DNA from: an uncultured Leucobacter sp.
Lineage (GTDB): Bacteria; Actinomycetota; Actinomycetes; Actinomycetales; Microbacteriaceae
Length of the DNA stretch: 11,525 nt
NCBI GenBank assembly: GCA_937872275.1
Contig: CALMSE010000030.1
Coordinates: forward strand, 1 to 11,525
Direction of reading: 5' to 3'
Shown here: positions 2,982 to 11,367 of the stretch, piece after piece
Layout: the number at the start of each line of letters is the position of its first letter
Position numbering within the stretch: position 1 is the stretch's first letter
Notes under the pieces: model-generated
Databases searched by the model: none
The model's input: the letters and a program-made list of their open reading frames with translations, nothing else
What the model was told of the DNA's origin: nothing
Program-made: the position numbers and the translations under genes

Positions 2982-3743
2982 TCAGCGCAGCCGCTCGCCG
3001 ACGGCCCGCAGCACCTCGTCGGGACTCGCCCCGGCGTCGAATGCGGCGACCACGATGCGGGTCGCGCCGCGATCCGCATCGCTCCGCTCCGCACCGCTCC
3101 GCTCCACTCCGCCGAGCTCCACTCCGCCGAGCTCCACTCCGCCGAACTCCACTCCGCCGAACCATGGCGAGAAGCGGGAGACGAGGGTGCGCAGCTCGGC
3201 GTCGAGCAGGCCCGCCGCGCGCGGGTCGGGATCCCTCAGCCAGCGCCTGAGCGCCGCGTTGTGCACCGCGACCATCGCCGAGGCGAGCGCGATCGGCACC
3301 CAGGGCGGGGTGTCGGGCGCCGCGACCCGCGCGAGGTAGGCGGCGTAGACCCGCTCGTAGCGATGGGTGATGACGAGCTCGCGCTCGCGCAGCGCCGGCG
3401 TGCGGCGCAGGAGCCCCGAGCGCAGCTGCGCCGCCTCGACGTCCCGGGTGAGCAGATGCAGCACGTCGACCGTCGCGCGGGCGAGCGCCTCCTCGACCGG
3501 CAGCTCCGTCTCGCTCAGGAACTCCTCGAGCCGGCCGAGCGCGAGGTCGTGGTCGGCGAAGATCACGTCGTCCTTGCTGCCGAAGCGGCGGAAGAAGGTG
3601 CTGCGGCTCATGCCCACGGCGTCGGCGAGGTCGCCCGCGGTCGTGGCCTCGAAGCCGTGCTGCGCGAGGAAGCGGATCGCCGCCGTGCCGATCTCGGCAG
3701 GCACAGGGGCCCGCCGGCGCTGCGAGGAGGGCTGTTCTGGCAT
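2982..3743 (-). CDS. TetR family transcriptional regulator with internal pentapeptide repeats
   Basis: A 253-aa TetR-type repressor. The N-terminal DNA-binding domain (about 15-62) has the helix-turn-helix [20 protein letters not shown] (38-57). The rest should be the helical ligand and dimer domain. Between residues 196 and 226 lies an unusual low-complexity insert of GGVEL-type pentapeptides followed by [10 protein letters not shown], encoded by a 15-bp DNA minisatellite. Normal-looking helix sequence resumes at 229-253. The start is placed at ATG 3743: there is no Shine-Dalgarno, but an extended -10 ends 6 nt before it, which suits leaderless translation. A GTG at 3776 would add 11 residues that look like promoter sequence. 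The gene diverges from the acyl-CoA dehydrogenase and precedes lldD on the same strand, so control of either or both by an acyl-CoA or hydroxy-acid ligand is plausible. The ligand cannot be read from sequence. Confidence 0.85.
3081..3160. repeat. In-frame minisatellite inside tetR: four 15-bp units plus degenerate 5-bp units
   Basis: Positions 3101-3160 are four head-to-tail copies of a 15-bp unit, GCTCCACTCCGCCGA. The first three are identical; the fourth (3146-3160) differs at one base. Immediately to the left, 3081-3100 is built of GCTCC/GCACC pentamers, so the 15-bp unit looks like a higher-order form of a 5-bp repeat. On the coding (minus) strand each unit gives five residues of the GGVEL type. 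Gain or loss of whole 15-bp units preserves the frame; a 5-bp slip would shift it. Confidence 0.9.
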
Positions 3744-3749
3744 AGGCAG

Positions 3750-3758
3750 AAAGTACCA
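3750..3758 (-). promoter_or_regulatory. Extended -10 element for a probably leaderless tetR
   Basis: On the minus strand TGG-TACTTT (TGn plus TAnnnT hexamer) is followed by six bases, CTGCCT, and then the tetR ATG at 3743. The expected transcription start therefore falls on or next to the A of the ATG. No Shine-Dalgarno lies upstream of this ATG, and leaderless mRNAs are common in Actinobacteria. No convincing -35 hexamer is seen 16-18 nt upstream. Confidence 0.4.
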
Positions 3759-3814
3759 CAGATGCGAGATTGGCACTCGGTTTCATTTCGACCGGCATCA
3801 ATCTGTTCCTGGCC

Positions 3815-5192: not shown

Positions 5193-5543
5193 TCAGAGCC
5201 CGCTCAACAAGCCCATGCAGGGGCCGATCACGACGAGCCAGGTCGCCGCCGCCGCGATGAGCATGCCGAGCCCGACCCGGCGCGCGCGCTCGGAGGCCGC
5301 CACGACGACGCCGATGATCGCCGGGATCAGGAAGTAGAGGATCAGCCCGCCGAAGCCGGCGAAGAGGCCCGCGCTGATCAGCGGGAGCATGAGCATCCCG
5401 AGCAGCACGTAGACGCCGCAGCCGATGCCGATGCCGCCCCAGAGCGAGCCGCCCTCGCGGGGGAGGTCCGGGGGAGGGCGCTCCTCCGAGGGCTGCGGCC
5501 CGGGGCCCGGTGGCTCCTCGGGGGGCGGGGGCGCGTCGCTCAT
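5193..5543 (-). CDS. Small Pro-rich membrane protein, function unknown
   Basis: A 116-aa protein I do not recognise as a named family. Residues 1-30 are Pro/Glu-rich and presumably cytoplasmic. Three hydrophobic segments follow, at about 35-56, 58-82 and 91-113, the second pair joined by the charged loop ASERARR (83-89). Such short Pro-rich multi-helix proteins are common and poorly characterised in Actinobacteria. It is the last gene of the minus-strand block, starting 14 nt after the stop of the 106-aa Pro/Gln-rich protein, so co-transcription is likely. The upstream Shine-Dalgarno is weak (GGGA). It ends 15 nt from the end of the convergent acyl-CoA dehydrogenase gene, leaving no room for a separate terminator. 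Confidence 0.75.
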   Translation of the reverse strand: MSDAPPPPEEPPGPGPQPSEERPPPDLPREGGSLWGGIGIGCGVYVLLGMLMLPLISAGLFAGFGGLILYFLIPAIIGVVVAASERARRVGLGMLIAAAATWLVVIGPCMGLLSGL

Positions 5544-5557
5544 CGTCGATTCCCGAC

Positions 5558-5878
5558 CTAGGTGAGCATCGAGACGCAGGTGCCGAGCAGCACGATGACG
5601 CCCGCGGCGCAGAGGAGGAAGAATCCTGCGACGACGCCGCCGACGACGATGCCGACCTTCGCGCCCGTCGGCAGCGGCTGATTCTGCTGCGGAGGCGGCG
5701 GATAGGCGTGCTGCGGATAGGGAGGCTGCGGCTGAGGCGGCGGAGGATAGTGAGGCTGCGGATACGGAGGTTGCGGGAGTGCCTGCTGGATCGGATCGGG
5801 CTGCTGGGCCTGCGGTTGCTGGGCCTGCGGCTGCTGCGTCGGATCCGGGTGCGACGGGTCAGGCGGGCTCTGGTTCAC
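5558..5878 (-). CDS. Pro/Gln/Tyr-rich single-pass membrane protein, function unknown
   Basis: A 106-aa protein. Residues 1-70 are almost entirely Pro, Gln, Tyr and His, including a QAQQP tandem duplication and repeated PPYP/HYPPPP patterns; one transmembrane helix follows (about 73-101) with Cys90 and Cys101. This tail-anchored layout is familiar from actinobacterial small membrane proteins whose disordered Pro/Tyr-rich arm may bind partners. No catalytic domain is present. It starts at GTG 5878 behind a near-perfect AAGGAGG (5883-5889, 4-nt spacer) embedded in the end of the Lgt-like gene, overlapping that gene by 20 nt. The strong ribosome-binding site, the overlap and the downstream 116-aa gene indicate operon membership. 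Confidence 0.75.
   Translation of the reverse strand: MNQSPPDPSHPDPTQQPQAQQPQAQQPDPIQQALPQPPYPQPHYPPPPQPQPPYPQHAYPPPPQQNQPLPTGAKVGIVVGGVVAGFFLLCAAGVIVLLGTCVSMLT
5801..5830. repeat. Two tandem 15-bp units in the Pro/Gln-rich gene
   Basis: CTGCTGGGCCTGCGG (5801-5815) is followed directly by TTGCTGGGCCTGCGG (5816-5830), one base different. On the minus strand they encode the duplicated QAQQP pentapeptide. The array is short and frame-preserving, and is probably a product of slippage in a low-complexity coding region. Confidence 0.7.
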
Positions 5879-6665
5879 GATGCCTCCTTGCTCCGGTGGG
5901 AGTGAGCCTACCCTGCTTCGCGAGCCAGAGGATCCGCGCCGCGAACAGCGGGATCGTCACGAGCAGGAAGAGCTGGGGCCTCGTCAGACCCAGCCACGCG
6001 ACCTCGTTGCCGCGCACGAACTCGACGAGGAAGCGGAAGACGGCGTACGCGCCGATGTAGAGGGTCAGCGTCTCGCCCGCACCGAGACCGATGTGCCTGA
6101 GCCAGAACCACAGCAGCACGAAGGCGACCGCGTGGAACACGATCTCGTAGACGAAGCTCGGGTGCAGCCCGACGCCGGCCGGCGAGCCGACGCGCGCGGC
6201 CGCGGCCTCGTCGAGCACGATGCCCCAGCCGCCGGCGGTCGGCGCGCCCGGCCGCTCGGTGAGGAGGCAGCCGAAGCGGCCGATGGCGAGCGCGAGCGCG
6301 ACCGCCGGCGCGAAGAGATCGCCGGTGCGCTCCCGGTACCCCACGATGCGCTTCGTCAGGTGCACGCCGAGCCAGGCCCCGACGAGGGCGCTCAGGATCG
6401 ACGCGTTGCCCCGCAGCAGCTGCTCCGCGAGGTTGAGGTTCTGGGCGGGGTCGAGGTGCTGCACCCAGGTGCCGAGCCGGGCGAAGACGGCCGCGCCGAC
6501 GAGCGCCCCGAGTACGAGCCACGGAATGCGCGGATCGCGCACCCGGCGTCTGCGCGCCTCGAGCCAGAACACGAGACCGCCTGCCAGGAGCCCCAGCGCC
6601 ACGAAGACGCCGTGCGTGTCGAGCGGGGGCCCGAAGCCCAGCAGGTCGTCGAGGCGGGGGAACAC
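5859..6665 (-). CDS. Lgt-family (prolipoprotein diacylglyceryl transferase-like) membrane protein, divergent paralogue
   Basis: A 268-aa integral membrane protein with about seven hydrophobic segments, normal Lgt length. Lgt normally moves diacylglycerol from phosphatidylglycerol to the lipobox Cys of prolipoproteins. Retained features: the GR-x-G start of the signature (GRFG, 129-132, with Arg130), HPSFVYE (168-174) in place of HPxQLYE, and RFLVEFVRGN (211-220). Departures are marked: the loop that reads SFHGGLIG in E. coli Lgt is SILSALVG here (89-96), so the conserved His-Gly-Gly is gone, and the GN of GRxGN is GC (Cys133). I read it as an Lgt-fold relative with a changed acceptor or donor rather than the housekeeping Lgt. 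Its GTG start lies 3 nt after the stop of the 114-aa gene, without a clear ribosome-binding site, which suggests translational coupling. Its 3' end overlaps the next gene by 20 nt. Confidence 0.85.
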   Translation of the reverse strand: MFPRLDDLLGFGPPLDTHGVFVALGLLAGGLVFWLEARRRRVRDPRIPWLVLGALVGAAVFARLGTWVQHLDPAQNLNLAEQLLRGNASILSALVGAWLGVHLTKRIVGYRERTGDLFAPAVALALAIGRFGCLLTERPGAPTAGGWGIVLDEAAAARVGSPAGVGLHPSFVYEIVFHAVAFVLLWFWLRHIGLGAGETLTLYIGAYAVFRFLVEFVRGNEVAWLGLTRPQLFLLVTIPLFAARILWLAKQGRLTPTGARRHREPEPA

Positions 6666-6668
6666 GGA

Positions 6669-7013
6669 TCAGCCGCCGAGCACCCGGATCCAGAGCGCGA
6701 CCCAGAAGGGGATCGCCGCCGCGGCGAGCACCGCCACGGCGGCGAGGTAGGCGATGACCACCCGGGTGTCGCCGAGCCGGCACTTCGAGCGCATGAGGCC
6801 GGCCCGCCGAGCCCTCGCGTAGCCGGCGATCGCGGTCAGGGCGAACGCGAGGAGAGCGACGGGGCCGAGCACGCAGGCGATGAGCGCCACGGTGGTGTTC
6901 ACGCAGAGGCGCAGCGGATCGAGGCCCGGAGCGTCCGCGACGCCGGGGTCGCGCTGCGCGAGCGGAGGCGTGTTCGGCGTCAGGTGCGCGGTCCGGTCGT
7001 CTGGCGCGGTCAT
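6669..7013 (-). CDS. Two-helix membrane protein in the radical SAM/Lgt-like operon
   Basis: A 114-aa protein with no family I can name. Residues 1-32 are polar and Pro-rich. Helices are predicted at about 38-64 and 83-109, joined by a very basic loop (ARARRAGLMRSKCRLGDTR, 66-84) that should face the cytoplasm and phospholipid head groups. The ATG (7013-7011) overlaps the TGA of the radical SAM gene (ATGA) and has GGAG 6 nt upstream, so it is translationally coupled to that gene. The Lgt-like gene begins 3 nt after its stop. Being wedged between the radical SAM enzyme and the Lgt-like protein, it is a natural candidate for a membrane partner or recruiter, but this is inference. The reading frame is open much further upstream (to 8558), antisense or out of frame to the radical SAM gene; that extension is not credible. 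Confidence 0.8.
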   Translation of the reverse strand: MTAPDDRTAHLTPNTPPLAQRDPGVADAPGLDPLRLCVNTTVALIACVLGPVALLAFALTAIAGYARARRAGLMRSKCRLGDTRVVIAYLAAVAVLAAAAIPFWVALWIRVLGG

Positions 7014-8632
7014 GCCCCGCTCCGGGTACCGATGGCGACGGGGGTCGGGAGGGCGCGGGCACCCGTCGCGGTCGAGAGGCGCCGCCGCGACAGCGGTGCC
7101 CAGGCCTGCACCGCGCAGAAGGGCGCGCACTGGTGCACGGCCTCGCCGGCAGGGCCAGGGTTCTCGTGCACCGTCGCGACGTGCACGCAGCACTGCGTCA
7201 GCCGCTCCTCGATCATGGTGTTGATGTCCATGAAGGGCTTCACCGTGATGCGCTTCACGCGCTCGCCCAGAAACCCCCGCAGCCGCTTCTGCTGGCCCGG
7301 AAGCGCCGCCGCGGCGAGCTTCGTGAGCGTGCCGATGCCGAGATCGCAGCCGGTGCAGATGTCCTTCCACAGCGAGGCGATCGAGGGATGCGACAGCGAC
7401 GACTGCTCGCTCAGGAGGTCGAGCAGCGACTGCTTCACGCTGTCCTTGAGCGCCTGGTTGATGCCGCTGTCGGCGATGCGGTTCGCGATGAGATCGGGGT
7501 TCAGGTCGAGAAACTCCTTGAGCCGATCGGGCCCGACGAGGGCGGTCAGCGACCTCCAGTCGCCCGAGTCGTCGCGCAGCAGATAGCCGACCGAGCAGCA
7601 GTGCGGATGCGAGCAGGGGAGCGCCGTGAGGTCGCGCCAGGTCACCTCGCCGTCCGTCTGCGGGCCCAGCCTCGCGAGCACCCCGGTGTGGGTGAGGCGA
7701 TCCTGCGCATCGATGCCGGCGGAGCGCCCCGAGCCGAAGACCGGCTGGATCGTGACCCCGCCCACGTACGGAGTCTCCATGGCGCGGCGGATCACGGCGC
7801 CGATCTCGTGGTCGTTCACCCCGAGTGCGGCCGTCATCGTGAGCGTCGTGAAGACACCGGCCGCGGACAGCCGCTCGAGCGCCCGCTGCTTGAAGCGGCG
7901 GATGTCGGCGCCGCGATGGTAGCGCGACGACTCCGGCTCCTCGCCGTCGTACTGCAGGTAGATCTCGACGCGCTCGCGGTGCCGCTTCAGCGTCTCGACG
8001 AAGGCGTCGTCGTTCGCGATTCTGAGCCCGTTCGAGTTGATGAGGATGCGCACCACCGGGCGCGCCACCAGCTGCTCGAGCAGCTGCTCGAGCCAGGGGT
8101 AGAGCGTCGGTTCGCCTCCCGAGAGCATGAGCACGTCGATGCGGTTCCGCTCGCGCGAGAGCCGCGCGTCGACCGAGGCGAGCACCTCTTCGAGCGGTGC
8201 CACGGCGCTCGCCGCCGGGCTCGACTCGGCGAAGCAGGTGGGGCACTTGAGGTTGCAGTGGTCGGTGATGTCCTCCAGCAGGATGCAGGTGTGCTGCGTC
8301 TGCATCTCCGGCAGCCCGTCCTCGTAGGCCTCGGGCACCGGCTTGAAGTTGCCGGCGAGATCGGCGGCGTGGATCTTGGTCGGCGCCGTCCACTGCTCGA
8401 GATAGGAGAGGATCTCGGCCGACTCGTCGTAGAGGGTGCGCTGCAGGCCGTGGGTGCGGCAGCCGCGCTCGAGCCAGATCACGCCGTCGCGATCCGCGAG
8501 CCAGCCCGAGAGCCGCTGCACCTCGGACAGCGGGCGATCCGGGTCCTCCTCGTGGCACGCGGGGCAGAAGGCGTTGACGTAGCGGTGCACGCGGTAGTCG
8601 CGCAACGGCATCCCGGCGGTCGGCGTTGACAT
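7010..8632 (-). CDS. Radical SAM protein of the tetraether/membrane-spanning lipid synthase (Tes, MJ0619-like) family
   Basis: A 540-aa protein. The radical SAM cluster motif is HCNLKCPTC (Cys126, Cys130, Cys133), followed by the SAM-binding SGGEPTLYPW (171-180). An N-terminal metal-binding piece has CPAC (Cys23, Cys26) and GCRTHG (Cys58). Further Cys sites are LPCSHPHCC (Cys340, 345, 346), CTGC (Cys426, 429), QCC (Cys481, 482) and QCAPFC (Cys502, 506). This CPxC...CxxHG / CxxxCxxC / CSHPHC / RCC...PFC order is what I know from archaeal Tes, which joins isoprenoid lipid tails by C-C bonds using several iron-sulphur clusters, and from bacterial homologues tied to membrane-spanning lipids. The substrate here is unknown; a lipid C-H activation is the family-based guess. 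Residues 512-540 are a basic low-complexity tail. The start at 8632 lacks a Shine-Dalgarno and may be leaderless; Met8 is an alternative. It lies 59 nt downstream of marR. Confidence 0.88.
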   Translation of the reverse strand: MSTPTAGMPLRDYRVHRYVNAFCPACHEEDPDRPLSEVQRLSGWLADRDGVIWLERGCRTHGLQRTLYDESAEILSYLEQWTAPTKIHAADLAGNFKPVPEAYEDGLPEMQTQHTCILLEDITDHCNLKCPTCFAESSPAASAVAPLEEVLASVDARLSRERNRIDVLMLSGGEPTLYPWLEQLLEQLVARPVVRILINSNGLRIANDDAFVETLKRHRERVEIYLQYDGEEPESSRYHRGADIRRFKQRALERLSAAGVFTTLTMTAALGVNDHEIGAVIRRAMETPYVGGVTIQPVFGSGRSAGIDAQDRLTHTGVLARLGPQTDGEVTWRDLTALPCSHPHCCSVGYLLRDDSGDWRSLTALVGPDRLKEFLDLNPDLIANRIADSGINQALKDSVKQSLLDLLSEQSSLSHPSIASLWKDICTGCDLGIGTLTKLAAAALPGQQKRLRGFLGERVKRITVKPFMDINTMIEERLTQCCVHVATVHENPGPAGEAVHQCAPFCAVQAWAPLSRRRLSTATGARALPTPVAIGTRSGA

Positions 8633-8638
8633 GGCCCC

Positions 8639-8644
8639 AGCCTA
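8639..8644 (-). promoter_or_regulatory. Possible -10 hexamer for the radical SAM operon
   Basis: On the minus strand TAGGCT (TAnnnT pattern) is followed by GGGGCC and the ATG at 8632, the same hexamer-6 nt-ATG geometry as tetR, and would give a leaderless transcript. The hexamer is a poor match otherwise and no -35 is visible, so transcription from upstream through marR is equally possible. Confidence 0.2.
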
Positions 8645-8691
8645 TTCGCTGTTCGCGGGGCTCCGTGCGTGCTGGGGGCGGGGGACCGCGC

Positions 8692-9216
8692 TCACTCCCT
8701 CACGTCGGGGCCGAAGCGGTCGACGCTGATGGCGAGCCTGCGCAGCAGCGTGGCGAGCCGCTCGCGCTCGGCGCGGGGAACGCCGCCCAGCAGGTGCTCC
8801 TCGGCGTCGGTGAGGCGCGTCATGGCCGCGTCGACCAGGGTCTGGCCCTGATCCGTCATCTCGACCAGCACCCCGCGGCCGTCGTTCGGGTCGGTGAGCC
8901 GATGCACCAGCCCGCGCTCCTCCATGCGGTCGATGCGGTTCGTCATCGTGCCGCTCGAGACCATGGTCTGCCGCACGAGCATCTTCGGGCTCTGCCGGTA
9001 GGGCGCGCCCGATCGGCGCAGCACCGCGAGCACGTCGAACTCCCACGAGGTGAGCCCGCTCCGCGCGAAGGCCTGCGTGCGCACGCGATCCACGTGCTTC
9101 GCGATGCGGGTCATACGGGAGAAGACCGCGAGCGGCGCGAGGTCGAGGTCCGGGCGCGCGGCGGCCCAATCCTTCACGATCCGATCGACCTCGTCCTGTT
9201 CCTTCATGCCCCCCAT
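8692..9216 (-). CDS. MarR family transcriptional regulator
   Basis: A 174-aa winged-helix regulator. It has an N-terminal dimerisation helix region (about 25-50), SGLTSWEFDVLAVLRRSG (53-70), a recognition region MVSSGTMTNRIDRMEERGLV (85-104) and a wing HRLTDPNDGRGVLVEMTDQG (105-124) with the family's DxRxxxxxLT pattern, then C-terminal dimer helices. MarR proteins usually repress a neighbouring gene or operon and release DNA on binding a small hydrophobic or phenolic ligand, or on oxidation. It sits 59 nt upstream of the radical SAM gene on the same strand and is its natural regulator. Start choice is uncertain: ATG 9216 has GGGGAG only 3 nt away, while ATG 9207 (Met4) lies 7 nt after a GATAAT hexamer and could be leaderless. 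No clear palindrome was found in the 59-nt gap. Confidence 0.9.
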   Translation of the reverse strand: MGGMKEQDEVDRIVKDWAAARPDLDLAPLAVFSRMTRIAKHVDRVRTQAFARSGLTSWEFDVLAVLRRSGAPYRQSPKMLVRQTMVSSGTMTNRIDRMEERGLVHRLTDPNDGRGVLVEMTDQGQTLVDAAMTRLTDAEEHLLGGVPRAERERLATLLRRLAISVDRFGPDVRE

Positions 9217-9256: not shown

Positions 9257-10762
9257 TCAGGGCCGTTCCGCGGGCGCCTGCTCGCGTTGCGGAGCGGCCT
9301 CGACCGTGTGTCGCGAGTGCCGCAGGAACAGCACCGCGATCAGGCCGAGCAGGATGACGCCCGCGGGCAGCAGGATCGACTGCGCCATGGCCGTCGAGAA
9401 CGGGCCGGCGATGGCGTCGGGCAGACGGCCCGCCGAGAAATCGCCTCCCGCGCTCGCCGCGCCGGGGAGATTGCTCTCGAGGCGGGCCTGCATGAACGCG
9501 GCGATGGCCGCGGATCCGATCACCGAGCCCACGGTGCGGGTGGCGTTGTAGATGCCGGATCCGGCTCCCGCCTGCCGCGGTGCGAGGCCCAGCGTCGCGG
9601 TGGTGGCCAGCGGCCCCCACATGCCCGCGTTGCCGATGCCGAGCAGTGCAGAGGGCAGGAGGAACGCCCAGACCGGCGTGTCGGGGTTCATGATTAGCGC
9701 GTACCAGACGAGGGAGACGGCGACCATCAATAGGCCCGGGACGAGCAGCACGCGCGGATCCACTCGGTCGAGCAGGCGGCCTGCGAGCGGCGAGAGCACG
9801 CCGGCCGCGACCGCCATCGGCACGAGGAGCAGCGCGGACTGGGTCGGGGTGAGACCCCGGGCCAGCTGCACGAAGAACATGAGCGGCAGCGACATGCTCG
9901 TCACGGTGAAGCCGACGGTCGCGATGCCGAGGTTCGCCACAGAGAAGTTGCGGTCGCGGAACAGGCCGAGCGGCACGAGCGGCTCGCTCTTCGTCTTCGC
10001 CTGCTGCCAGATGAACAGCGCGAGCACCACGACGCCGGTCGCGATGAGCGACCAGACGGAGATCGGCCCCCAGATCGCGCCCCAGTCGTACTTCTCGCCC
10101 TCCTGCAGGCCGAACACGATGAGGAAGAGGGCGACGGCGCTGAGCACGACGCCGGCGACATCGAAGCGGTGCGGGTGGGTCTCGAGCCTCGGCACGAGGA
10201 TCCAGGCGAGCACGAAGCCGATCACGCCGACCGGCACGTTGATGAAGAAGATCCACTCCCAGCCGAGGCCGTCGACGAGGAGGCCGCCGGCGAGCGGGCC
10301 GACGAGCATGGCGACGCCCGAGGTCGCCCCCCACAGGCCCATGGCCGCCCCGCGCTGCCGCGGCGGGAAGGTGCGCGTGATGACCGACATCGTCTGCGGC
10401 GTCATCAGCGCCGCGCCGAGCCCCTGAACGGCGCGCATGGCGATGAGCGCTTCGAGGGAGGCCGAGAATCCGCAGCCGAGGGATGCGAGCGTGAACACCG
10501 CGAGGCCGATGAGGTAGATGCTGCGCGGGCCGAAGCGGTCGCCGAGGCGGCCGGTGATGAGCAGCGGCACGGCGTAGGCGAGCAGGTACGCGCTCGTGAC
10601 CCACACGACGTTGTCGAGGTTGTTGGTGTGCGGATCGAGCGCCGCCTTGATGGCCGGGTTCGCGACCGAGACGATCGTCGTGTCGACGAGGATCATGAAG
10701 AAGCCGATCACCATGGCCCAGAGGGCCGGCCACGGGCTGCGGGGATGAGGGGAAGCGTTCAC
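9257..10762 (-). CDS. MFS drug exporter, DHA2 (EmrB/QacA) 14-helix type
   Basis: A 501-aa inner-membrane proton-drug antiporter. Signature pieces: LVDTTIVSVANPAI (25-38, the DHA2 motif in the first helix), the motif A loop GRLGDRFGPR (71-80), Arg110 in MRAVQGLGAA (helix 4), and motif C GVAMLVGPLAGG (149-160) followed by WEWIFFINVPVG (168-179). Length and the number of hydrophobic segments fit 14 transmembrane helices. These exporters expel hydrophobic or cationic toxic compounds; the substrate is not predictable. The GTG start at 10762 overlaps the padR TGA (GTGA) with AAAGGCGG upstream, so the two are translationally coupled and PadR is the likely repressor. The frame is open further upstream (to 10969) but that part runs over padR. 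The C-terminus ends in a short polar tail (about residues 477-501). Confidence 0.93.
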   Translation of the reverse strand: MNASPHPRSPWPALWAMVIGFFMILVDTTIVSVANPAIKAALDPHTNNLDNVVWVTSAYLLAYAVPLLITGRLGDRFGPRSIYLIGLAVFTLASLGCGFSASLEALIAMRAVQGLGAALMTPQTMSVITRTFPPRQRGAAMGLWGATSGVAMLVGPLAGGLLVDGLGWEWIFFINVPVGVIGFVLAWILVPRLETHPHRFDVAGVVLSAVALFLIVFGLQEGEKYDWGAIWGPISVWSLIATGVVVLALFIWQQAKTKSEPLVPLGLFRDRNFSVANLGIATVGFTVTSMSLPLMFFVQLARGLTPTQSALLLVPMAVAAGVLSPLAGRLLDRVDPRVLLVPGLLMVAVSLVWYALIMNPDTPVWAFLLPSALLGIGNAGMWGPLATTATLGLAPRQAGAGSGIYNATRTVGSVIGSAAIAAFMQARLESNLPGAASAGGDFSAGRLPDAIAGPFSTAMAQSILLPAGVILLGLIAVLFLRHSRHTVEAAPQREQAPAERP

Positions 10763-11367
10763 TGCCGGGCCGCCTTTCGCTGAGCCTGATATTGAGCGGG
10801 TGCGGGGCAGTCCTCCGCGCCCCAGAGGAGATCGCCCGATGCGAAGCGCGCGAGCAGCCCGTCGAGCCAGCTCAGCTCGGCATCGAGCAGCACCGCCTCG
10901 CGCTCGACGTCGACGAGGAACTGTTCGGCCACCGCGCGCGAGCGCGCATCGGCGAGACCCGAGCGGCATCCCGCGAGATCGGCCGCCAGGGTTCGCCGAC
11001 GCACCTCGAGCAGAGCGGCGACCTCCTCGCGCGGCAGGTTGTGGGCCTCAGCGAGGGCGACGCGGAACTGACCGGCGGGGTCGACGCGGGGCAGCTCGGC
11101 GCGCACCCACTCCGCGACGAGCTCGTCGCCGAGATCCTGCAGGGTGTAGATCGTGCGCTCCGGGCGGTTGCCCTCGCGATCGACGCCGGCCTCGGCGATG
11201 AGTCCCTGCTGCTCGAGGCGTGCGACCGTGTGGTAGAGGGCGCCCTTGGTGAGGGCGATCAGCCGGTCCCGACGACGCTGCTGCATGAGGCGCAGCATCT
11301 CGTAGGGATGCATGTCGCCCTCGCGGAGCAGGGCGAGCACCATGATGCCGAGCGGGGTGAGCCTCAC
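10759..11367 (-). CDS. PadR family transcriptional regulator
   Basis: A 202-aa regulator with an N-terminal PadR winged helix: RLTPLGIMVLALLREGDMHPYEM (2-24), LTKGALYHTVARLEQQGLI (39-57), and a wing with GNRPERTIYTLQDLG (66-80). The C-terminal half (about 95-178) is helical and matches the dimerising, ligand-responsive part of longer (Vir-type) PadR proteins. PadR proteins usually repress a co-transcribed or adjacent exporter and respond to its substrates, as the fused arrangement with the MFS gene suggests. The start is GTG 11367; an in-frame TAA lies 21 nt upstream (11386-11388), so no longer form is possible. No good Shine-Dalgarno precedes it. A palindromic operator overlaps the presumed promoter 30-50 nt upstream, consistent with autorepression. 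Confidence 0.9.
   Translation of the reverse strand: MRLTPLGIMVLALLREGDMHPYEMLRLMQQRRRDRLIALTKGALYHTVARLEQQGLIAEAGVDREGNRPERTIYTLQDLGDELVAEWVRAELPRVDPAGQFRVALAEAHNLPREEVAALLEVRRRTLAADLAGCRSGLADARSRAVAEQFLVDVEREAVLLDAELSWLDGLLARFASGDLLWGAEDCPAPAQYQAQRKAARQ

Follow-up and report, generated by a model that had tools for sequence, protein, structure and literature searches.

Why would a gene for an enzyme resembling the tetraether synthase (Tes) lie beside one for a relative of the prolipoprotein diacylglyceryl transferase Lgt in a mesophilic actinobacterium? The question is raised by the 11,525-nucleotide stretch of DNA analyzed here (referred to as the window), which is from contig 30 (CALMSE010000030.1) of an uncultured Leucobacter sp. 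whose genome assembly is 2.57 Mb in 346 contigs and 76.6% complete. Tes abstracts hydrogen from the ends of lipid tails and couples the ends, and Lgt transfers a diacylglyceryl unit from phosphatidylglycerol to a cysteine thiol at the outer face of the membrane. Five genes of the window are on the minus strand, coding for the Tes-like radical S-adenosylmethionine (SAM) enzyme rSAM (positions 7010 to 8632; 540 amino acids [aa]), a small two-helix membrane protein, TwoHx (6669 to 7013; 114 aa), the Lgt-like membrane protein LgtL (5859 to 6665; 268 aa, with a GTG start), the Pro-rich ProA (5558 to 5878; 106 aa, ending LLGTC), and ProB (5193 to 5543; 116 aa), a protein with a Pro-rich N terminus and a cysteine in its tail; by eye, ProA has one predicted helix and ProB three. 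The rSAM and TwoHx genes overlap by 4 nucleotides (ATGA), TwoHx and LgtL are 3 nucleotides apart, LgtL and ProA overlap by 20 nucleotides, ProA and ProB are separated by 14 nucleotides, and a MarR-family gene is 59 nucleotides from rSAM. The original prediction, made from the letters of this DNA, had described five minus-strand genes so spaced behind a MarR gene, and the coordinates agree exactly. We propose, with a probability of roughly one in three, that rSAM, LgtL, and ProB are the three core parts of a membrane lipid-modification cassette, in which LgtL would lipidate the tail Cys of ProB and rSAM would alter the lipid tails or the anchor.

The main argument is carried by linkage counts and by ProB in the Actinomycetota. 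In a sample of 345 genomes spread evenly over the window's class, which are related to one another such that the counts are not independent trials, family rSAM genes (847 to 1,121 bits) are present in 21 genomes, representing 12 genera and 7 families. LgtL (219 to 444 bits, E ≤ 1e-30) is present in the identical 21 genomes and in none of the other 324, and the two genes are always on one contig and one strand, with gaps of less than ∼0.8 kb. At the same LgtL threshold there is no match in 12 further genomes of the class that have a distant Tes/TrsS-like radical SAM protein (142 to 203 bits, E ≤ 1e-40). TwoHx (E ≤ 1e-8) is in 15 of the 21 cassette genomes and none of the 324 others. A phylum sample of 296 genomes was searched with the TrsS model, and 13 regions around the top matches were compared; family rSAM (>400 bits) is in five genomes other than the window's, one of which (G157) also belongs to the class sample, with LgtL in all five and TwoHx in three, and eight regions have Tes/TrsS-like loci with neither LgtL nor TwoHx. 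Among 120 genomes sampled at the family level, the sole strong match is in the window's own genome; the remaining 15 score at most 34.4 bits and represent generic radical SAM proteins, which makes the distribution of the cassette patchy. The original prediction had put forward co-occurrence of the two genes across the Actinomycetota as its check and their confinement to close relatives as a refutation; it withstands this test, as the pairing extends well outside close relatives, with one Bacteroidota record in addition to the class sample.

Loci from named genomes, comprising the best 80 of 263 rSAM relatives, span Leucobacter (the source of the closest named relatives of the window rSAM), Microbacterium, Agromyces, Micrococcaceae, Nocardioidaceae, Intrasporangiaceae, Micromonosporaceae, one Mycobacterium metagenome-assembled genome (MAG), and others. 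rSAM, TwoHx, and LgtL are together at 71 of the 80, rSAM and LgtL without TwoHx at 6, rSAM with TwoHx at 1, and rSAM alone at 2; LgtL adjoins rSAM at 77, and at the three loci without LgtL (L032, L075, and L097) the contig stops at the rSAM gene. The order is rSAM-TwoHx-LgtL at 41 loci and LgtL-rSAM-TwoHx at 29, and such reshuffling without loss of content speaks for a joint function over mere common ancestry of the region. When the neighbors at 85 loci were clustered, the only clusters besides rSAM, LgtL, and TwoHx to recur in at least three of eight taxon groups were ABC-transporter-like and major facilitator superfamily (MFS) proteins; ProB was missed in this clustering as a consequence of its low complexity and divergence. 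The rSAM and Bacteroidota LgtL profiles gave no match to viral contigs.

rSAM matches PF04055 at 67.5 bits and PF23545 at 35.7 bits. Among solved structures, its best relative is the tetraether synthase Mj0619 (7tol; E = 1.3e-32), in agreement with the Tes-like character assigned to it originally. Two phospholipids are reported to be bound in a hydrophobic pocket of that enzyme (PMC9433317); the structure model of rSAM has a mean predicted local distance difference test (pLDDT) score of 57.2, too low for judging a two-lipid pocket, and was not used. A rubredoxin-type CxxC...CxxH motif (C23, C26, C58, and H61) and the CxxxCxxC motif (C126, C130, and C133) are invariant across 23 sequences, and further conserved residues are C340/C345/C346, C426/C429, C481/C482/H484, and C502/C506. 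The cassette rSAMs form one group (support 100/100) in a tree of 28 rows.

LgtL keeps the Lgt fold and matches PF01790 at 92.8 bits (gathering cut-off, 24.9), consistent with the Lgt-like partner described in the original prediction. When it is aligned to the Lgt structure 5azb, LgtL residues R130, E174, Y207, R211, E215, and R218 correspond to the Lgt network; R130, Y207, R211, E215, and R218, equivalent to R143, Y235, R239, E243, and R246 of Lgt, are each conserved in at least 97% of 78 LgtL sequences, and these residues are reported to be important in Lgt (PMC4728403). LgtL was also considered as a replacement for Lgt, a role rejected because all 21 cassette genomes of the class sample have a further Lgt-family gene elsewhere. 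That gene is the better canonical Lgt match in 19 of the 21, such that LgtL is an addition; in G420 and G440 it is slightly weaker against the canonical query than LgtL (60.3 versus 64.8 bits and 59.4 versus 73.9 bits, respectively).

ProB is the component whose importance the original prediction missed. Of the two Pro-rich membrane proteins it had included, ProB is, on these locus counts, a predicted third core part of the cassette beside rSAM and LgtL, with a conserved Cys ending its last helix, but ProA, which has a ProB-like layout yet is a separate gene limited to the lineage, is not conserved in general. ProB was first recognized by eye among genes following LgtL in other genomes, and then by profile. 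Its layout is a Pro-rich N terminus followed by helices, a turn with positive charge, a helix free of charged residues, and a Gly-x-Cys near the stop codon, and the last helix of the window protein has the form RARR...GPC109. The profile was iterated on the first 85 loci, on which counts from those loci thus depend, and finds 92 open reading frames (ORFs) at 74 of them, all 92 on the rSAM strand and within 2 kb of rSAM; there is no match at 48 loci without the cassette, many of which are 3 to 4 kb and some of which cover one place twice. At 19 cassette loci outside profile building, whose rSAMs have 68 to 92% identity to the nearest rSAM among the profile-building loci, there are 18 ProB ORFs at 17 loci (E ≤ 0.01), 15 of them between LgtL and rSAM and all 18 with the Gly-x-Cys. 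Including three plasmid records, ProB is at 94 of 107 cassette loci (115 ORFs), and Gly-x-Cys is in 104 of the 115. A simpler ProB profile, scanned across the whole genomes of the class sample, matches 13 of 345 (E ≤ 1e-4), seven of them cassette genomes with the match beside the cassette and six of them cassette-free (24.8 to 30.5 bits); the ProB signature by itself is therefore weak, and linkage carries the argument.

In ProB, the distance from the last Arg or Lys to the Cys has a median of 21 residues and that from the Cys to the stop a median of 9 (98 of 109 ORFs in each case). No charge falls within the 19 residues preceding the Cys in 103 of 104 ORFs, and net charge averages +2.09 over the eight residues ahead of this stretch and −0.09 over the eight that follow the Cys. 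By the positive-inside rule, such a pattern puts the Cys on the outer side of the membrane, which is where Lgt acts. When 27 sequences are aligned (31% mean column identity; the window row ends just short of the Cys), the Cys is among five columns conserved at ≥90%; ProB is otherwise variable, keeping a charged residue, glycines, and Cys, and it is present in two or three copies at 14 of 85 loci. ProB and TwoHx fall outside every Pfam family (best E = 0.009, with all scores under the cut-offs); ProA and ProB have a single weak Pfam or NCBIfam match each, far below cut-offs, and TwoHx, which has the conserved motifs DPLRLC and RSxCxLxDTR, has no match in either database at E ≤ 0.1. A second type of tail protein, lacking the Cys, is present at Nocardioidaceae loci (L063:12564-12800, L067:12504-12740, L072:12102-12338, and L076:11893-12648), and in the two for which the reading extended to this region (L063 and L072) a WWHRDHPTF stretch precedes the helices.

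Cassettes are also plasmid borne. Among 72,556 plasmid records, an Lgt-like query matches four (E ≤ 1e-10), all with a Tes-like rSAM adjoining, and an rSAM query matches ten (E ≤ 1e-20), including those four. Two mycobacterial plasmids, one of which is typed as mobilizable (MOBP), each have LgtL and rSAM together with two tail-Cys genes; the plasmid cassettes of Mycobacterium branderi and M. avium (L212:4358-7551 and L215:4228-7548) are near transposase genes, and there is no TwoHx match in either. Five of the other six rSAM records were examined, and all five have a methyltransferase neighbor. These Trs-type pairs, with the methyltransferase behind the Tes-like rSAM (L216:3968-6336, L217:2986-5149, L218:2926-5204, L219:2974-5177, and L220:2974-5084), are from haloarchaea and Mycolicibacterium vanbaalenii, and several are beside thiol-redox-type genes (redoxin/peroxiredoxin, CcdA, or disulfide oxidoreductase) or DUF547.

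The fourth Lgt-like plasmid record (L214) is from the Bacteroidota member Persicobacter psychrovividus. Its LgtL gene (5265 to 6011; TTG start) overlaps rSAM (6001 to 7395), the stop of which is in an ATGA overlap with a gene (7392 to 7571) for a 59-aa protein with two hydrophobic stretches and the C terminus RAMKYFIFAAIYFVIGTGICGSLLS. The LgtL profiles of the two phyla align over 214 columns with 30% identity (hhalign probability, 99.6%), and GRxGC and GDLF are common to both. The Persicobacter rSAM adjoins the cassette group in the tree, where the branch holding all others has support of 87/85, although these are long branches for which the tool warns of false joins. The Bacteroidota LgtL family numbers 2,051 proteins at E ≤ 0.001, which may include other Lgt relatives. 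This Lgt-like family is large and highly conserved, with 60 to 69% identity to the Persicobacter LgtL among the 120 matches listed other than itself, and GRxGC is in all 12 aligned sequences; its neighborhood is known from one record.

From the observed gene linkage, LgtL fold, residue conservation, and Cys position relative to charges, we infer the following acceptor, chemical steps, and order of events. At the outer face, LgtL would bind a lipid of the phosphatidylglycerol type and move its diacylglyceryl part onto the ProB Cys at the outer end of the last helix, within a Gly-x-Cys rather than a normal lipobox. Cytosolic rSAM would take a hydrogen off an unactivated carbon of a lipid tail, either in the donor lipid or in the new anchor, and would then couple or otherwise alter that tail, and TwoHx may dock or assist rSAM at the membrane. 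A more far-reaching version, which we regard as rather doubtful, is that this is a new lipid-anchoring pathway of mesophilic Actinomycetota and Bacteroidota, mobile on plasmids, in which a diverged Lgt lipidates a Cys of a C-terminal helix and the Tes-like enzyme cross-links or alters the tails of the anchor, yielding, for example, a membrane-spanning or covalently paired protein lipid.

Several observations weigh against the lipidation of ProB and tail alteration by rSAM. The cluster-N cysteines of Tes (C73, C77, and C80) correspond to E101, D105, and P108 in the window rSAM, and Cys is at these positions in 0 of 22 cassette rows. In place of Tyr459, the window rSAM and all 22 rows have Val, whereas PMC9433317 gives this Tyr as strictly conserved across 1,000 archaeal Tes homologues, and with such Tes-conserved residues lost, synthesis of membrane-spanning lipids is not transferable from Tes to rSAM. 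In LgtL, H103 of the HGGL motif, which is needed for activity of Escherichia coli Lgt, is replaced by Leu91; this loss was considered as a mark of altered LgtL function and rejected, because the canonical Lgt of the window's genome has Phe at this position and likewise lacks the His. TwoHx is missing from 6 of the 21 cassette genomes. No ProB was found at 13 of the 107 cassette loci, of which at least four (L024, L026, L032, and L097) are truncated by the end of a contig, and 11 of the 115 ProB-family ORFs are without the Gly-x-Cys; nine have no Cys near that site, eight of these being from Nocardioides/Nocardioidaceae loci. The position preceding the Cys is A, G, or S, as in lipoproteins, in only 16 of 104. 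The Bacteroidota trio is a single locus, and the resemblance of its 59-aa protein to ProB is one of layout only, judged by eye: against the ProB profile it scores 5.5 bits (E = 28), which is no match, and a homologue search with it returned itself alone.

The likeliest alternative, which takes up the lipid product of the original prediction although we consider it doubtful, is that rSAM and LgtL together produce a free membrane lipid whose tails are coupled or modified, with ProB and TwoHx as scaffolds and no protein being lipidated. The relationship of rSAM to Tes, an enzyme that binds and couples lipid tails (PMC9433317), and a LgtL fold that handles diacylglycerol would both fit. However, rSAM lacks Tyr459, Met439, and the cluster-N cysteines of Tes, this reading offers no explanation for the conserved Cys in the ProB tail or for Cys133, invariant in LgtL, and the literature searched, as far as its texts were accessible, describes no membrane-spanning lipids for these genera. 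A second alternative, which we think unlikely, is that rSAM modifies ProB itself, such as by forming a C-S or C-C bond near the tail Cys, within a membrane complex of LgtL and TwoHx that holds the helix. ProB is precursor-like in being small, multicopy at some loci, and variable save for its charged residue, glycines, and Cys, and the many extra conserved cysteines of rSAM could hold further clusters; but the ProB Cys is at the outer face by the charge rule and iron-sulfur enzymes are cytosolic, the closest characterized relative of rSAM works on lipids rather than peptides, and a mere scaffold would not need the lipid-binding catalytic residues that LgtL keeps. It is quite improbable that the conserved cysteines of the three membrane partners LgtL, TwoHx, and ProB act as a disulfide or metal relay supplying or protecting rSAM with no lipid being made, as this leaves the retained Lgt arginine network unexplained and Cys-less ProB copies lie beside Cys-containing ones (for example, at L063, L067, and L072). 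That LgtL is simply a second Lgt for lipoproteins beside an unrelated radical SAM gene, as its automatic annotation as a 'prolipoprotein diacylglyceryl transferase family protein' would have it, is highly improbable and already disfavored by the complete co-occurrence with rSAM in the class sample, the score below the Lgt equivalog cut-off, the substitution of Asn146 by Cys, and the further Lgt-family gene in every cassette genome.

The MarR-family gene (8692 to 9216, minus strand) was taken in the original prediction as part of the unit and as its regulator, a role that we rejected: MarR adjoins rSAM at 5 of the 80 named loci, all of them in Leucobacter or a MAG labelled LEU1, and it is probably outside the cassette. 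It adjoins a DHA2-type MFS efflux gene (9257 to 10969) on the same strand, a common regulator-pump arrangement, and a PadR gene (10759 to 11367) lies beyond. On the other side of the cassette, positions 2982 to 3776 code for a TetR-family regulator whose C-terminal domain is of the MftR type (106 bits to mycofact_TetR, against a cut-off of 224.9), adjoining a gene that is presumably of the lactate-dehydrogenase type; no mycofactocin gene was recognized within the window, in which no search was aimed at such genes. The gene at 625 to 1515 has a lipobox-like start (LGVLLTAC) and by eye resembles a polysaccharide deacetylase lipoprotein.

Bacterial homologues of Tes exist with products that are described as undetermined in two papers (PMC9433317 and PMC8941075), and a 2025 paper gives their activity as still unconfirmed (PMC11868695). 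The open-access literature searched yielded, in the titles, abstract openings, and passages covered, no pairing of a Tes-like radical SAM enzyme with an Lgt-like protein, and the terms 'tetraether synthase' and 'diacylglyceryl transferase' co-occur in none of its papers. The cassette is suggestive of a so far undescribed route by which an unusual membrane lipid is made or attached. It also offers a handle on the function of bacterial Tes homologues, in that one branch has a fixed Lgt-fold partner and a small membrane protein in which one cysteine stands out, and the genera with cassettes include cultured strains. If the tail Cys is lipidated, lipoprotein biology would gain a second type of acceptor, and if tails are coupled, membrane-spanning lipid chemistry would reach ordinary actinobacteria.

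Of the known systems, Tes is the closest characterized relative of rSAM. rSAM aligns with Mj0619 over most of its length, including counterparts of C33 and H36 and the CxxxCxxC motif, and keeps the equivalents of Phe106, Arg210, Gln268, and Arg275, several SAM contacts, and C455, C456, and H458. It differs in the replacement of Ser271 by Phe and Met439 by Lys (22 rows compared), in scoring 150.8 bits against a Tes NCBIfam equivalog cut-off of 450, and in its linkage to LgtL; the Met439 loss is of little weight, because a Met439 variant of Tes keeps activity (PMC9433317). Judged by sequence, rSAM is thus related to Tes but is not classed as Tes. Its best NCBIfam match is the TrsS (seleno)protein model NF045646, at 183.5 bits, below the equivalog cut-off of 490. 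In a comparison of hand-chosen loci, 22 with the cassette and 22 others (L137 and L168 being one gene), LgtL is at 22 of 22 cassette loci with a methyltransferase neighbor at none, whereas Trs-type or other Tes-like loci have a methyltransferase neighbor at 21 of 22 and no LgtL. We take the methyltransferase-type loci to be the Trs system, a criterion drawn from the loci compared here rather than from a curated definition; the best NCBIfam match of one such neighbor is the DVU_1556-family methyltransferase (136.3 bits; cut-off, 155). Residue 458 is His in the cassette rSAMs and Glu, Ser, Gln, Thr, Ala, or Met in other Tes/TrsS-like proteins.

Relative to Lgt, LgtL has C133 in place of Asn146 of the signature motif in all 78 aligned sequences, scores 55.6 bits against the TIGR00544 equivalog cut-off of 118.9, is linked to rSAM, and has the GDLF stretch in common with the Bacteroidota LgtL; on this basis it is a predicted Lgt paralog that is not classed as Lgt. 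ProB, finally, resembles lipobox acceptors in having a positive residue, an uncharged helix, and a Cys at the outer face by the charge rule, but it differs from lipoproteins in having that Cys near its C terminus, with Gly two positions before it.

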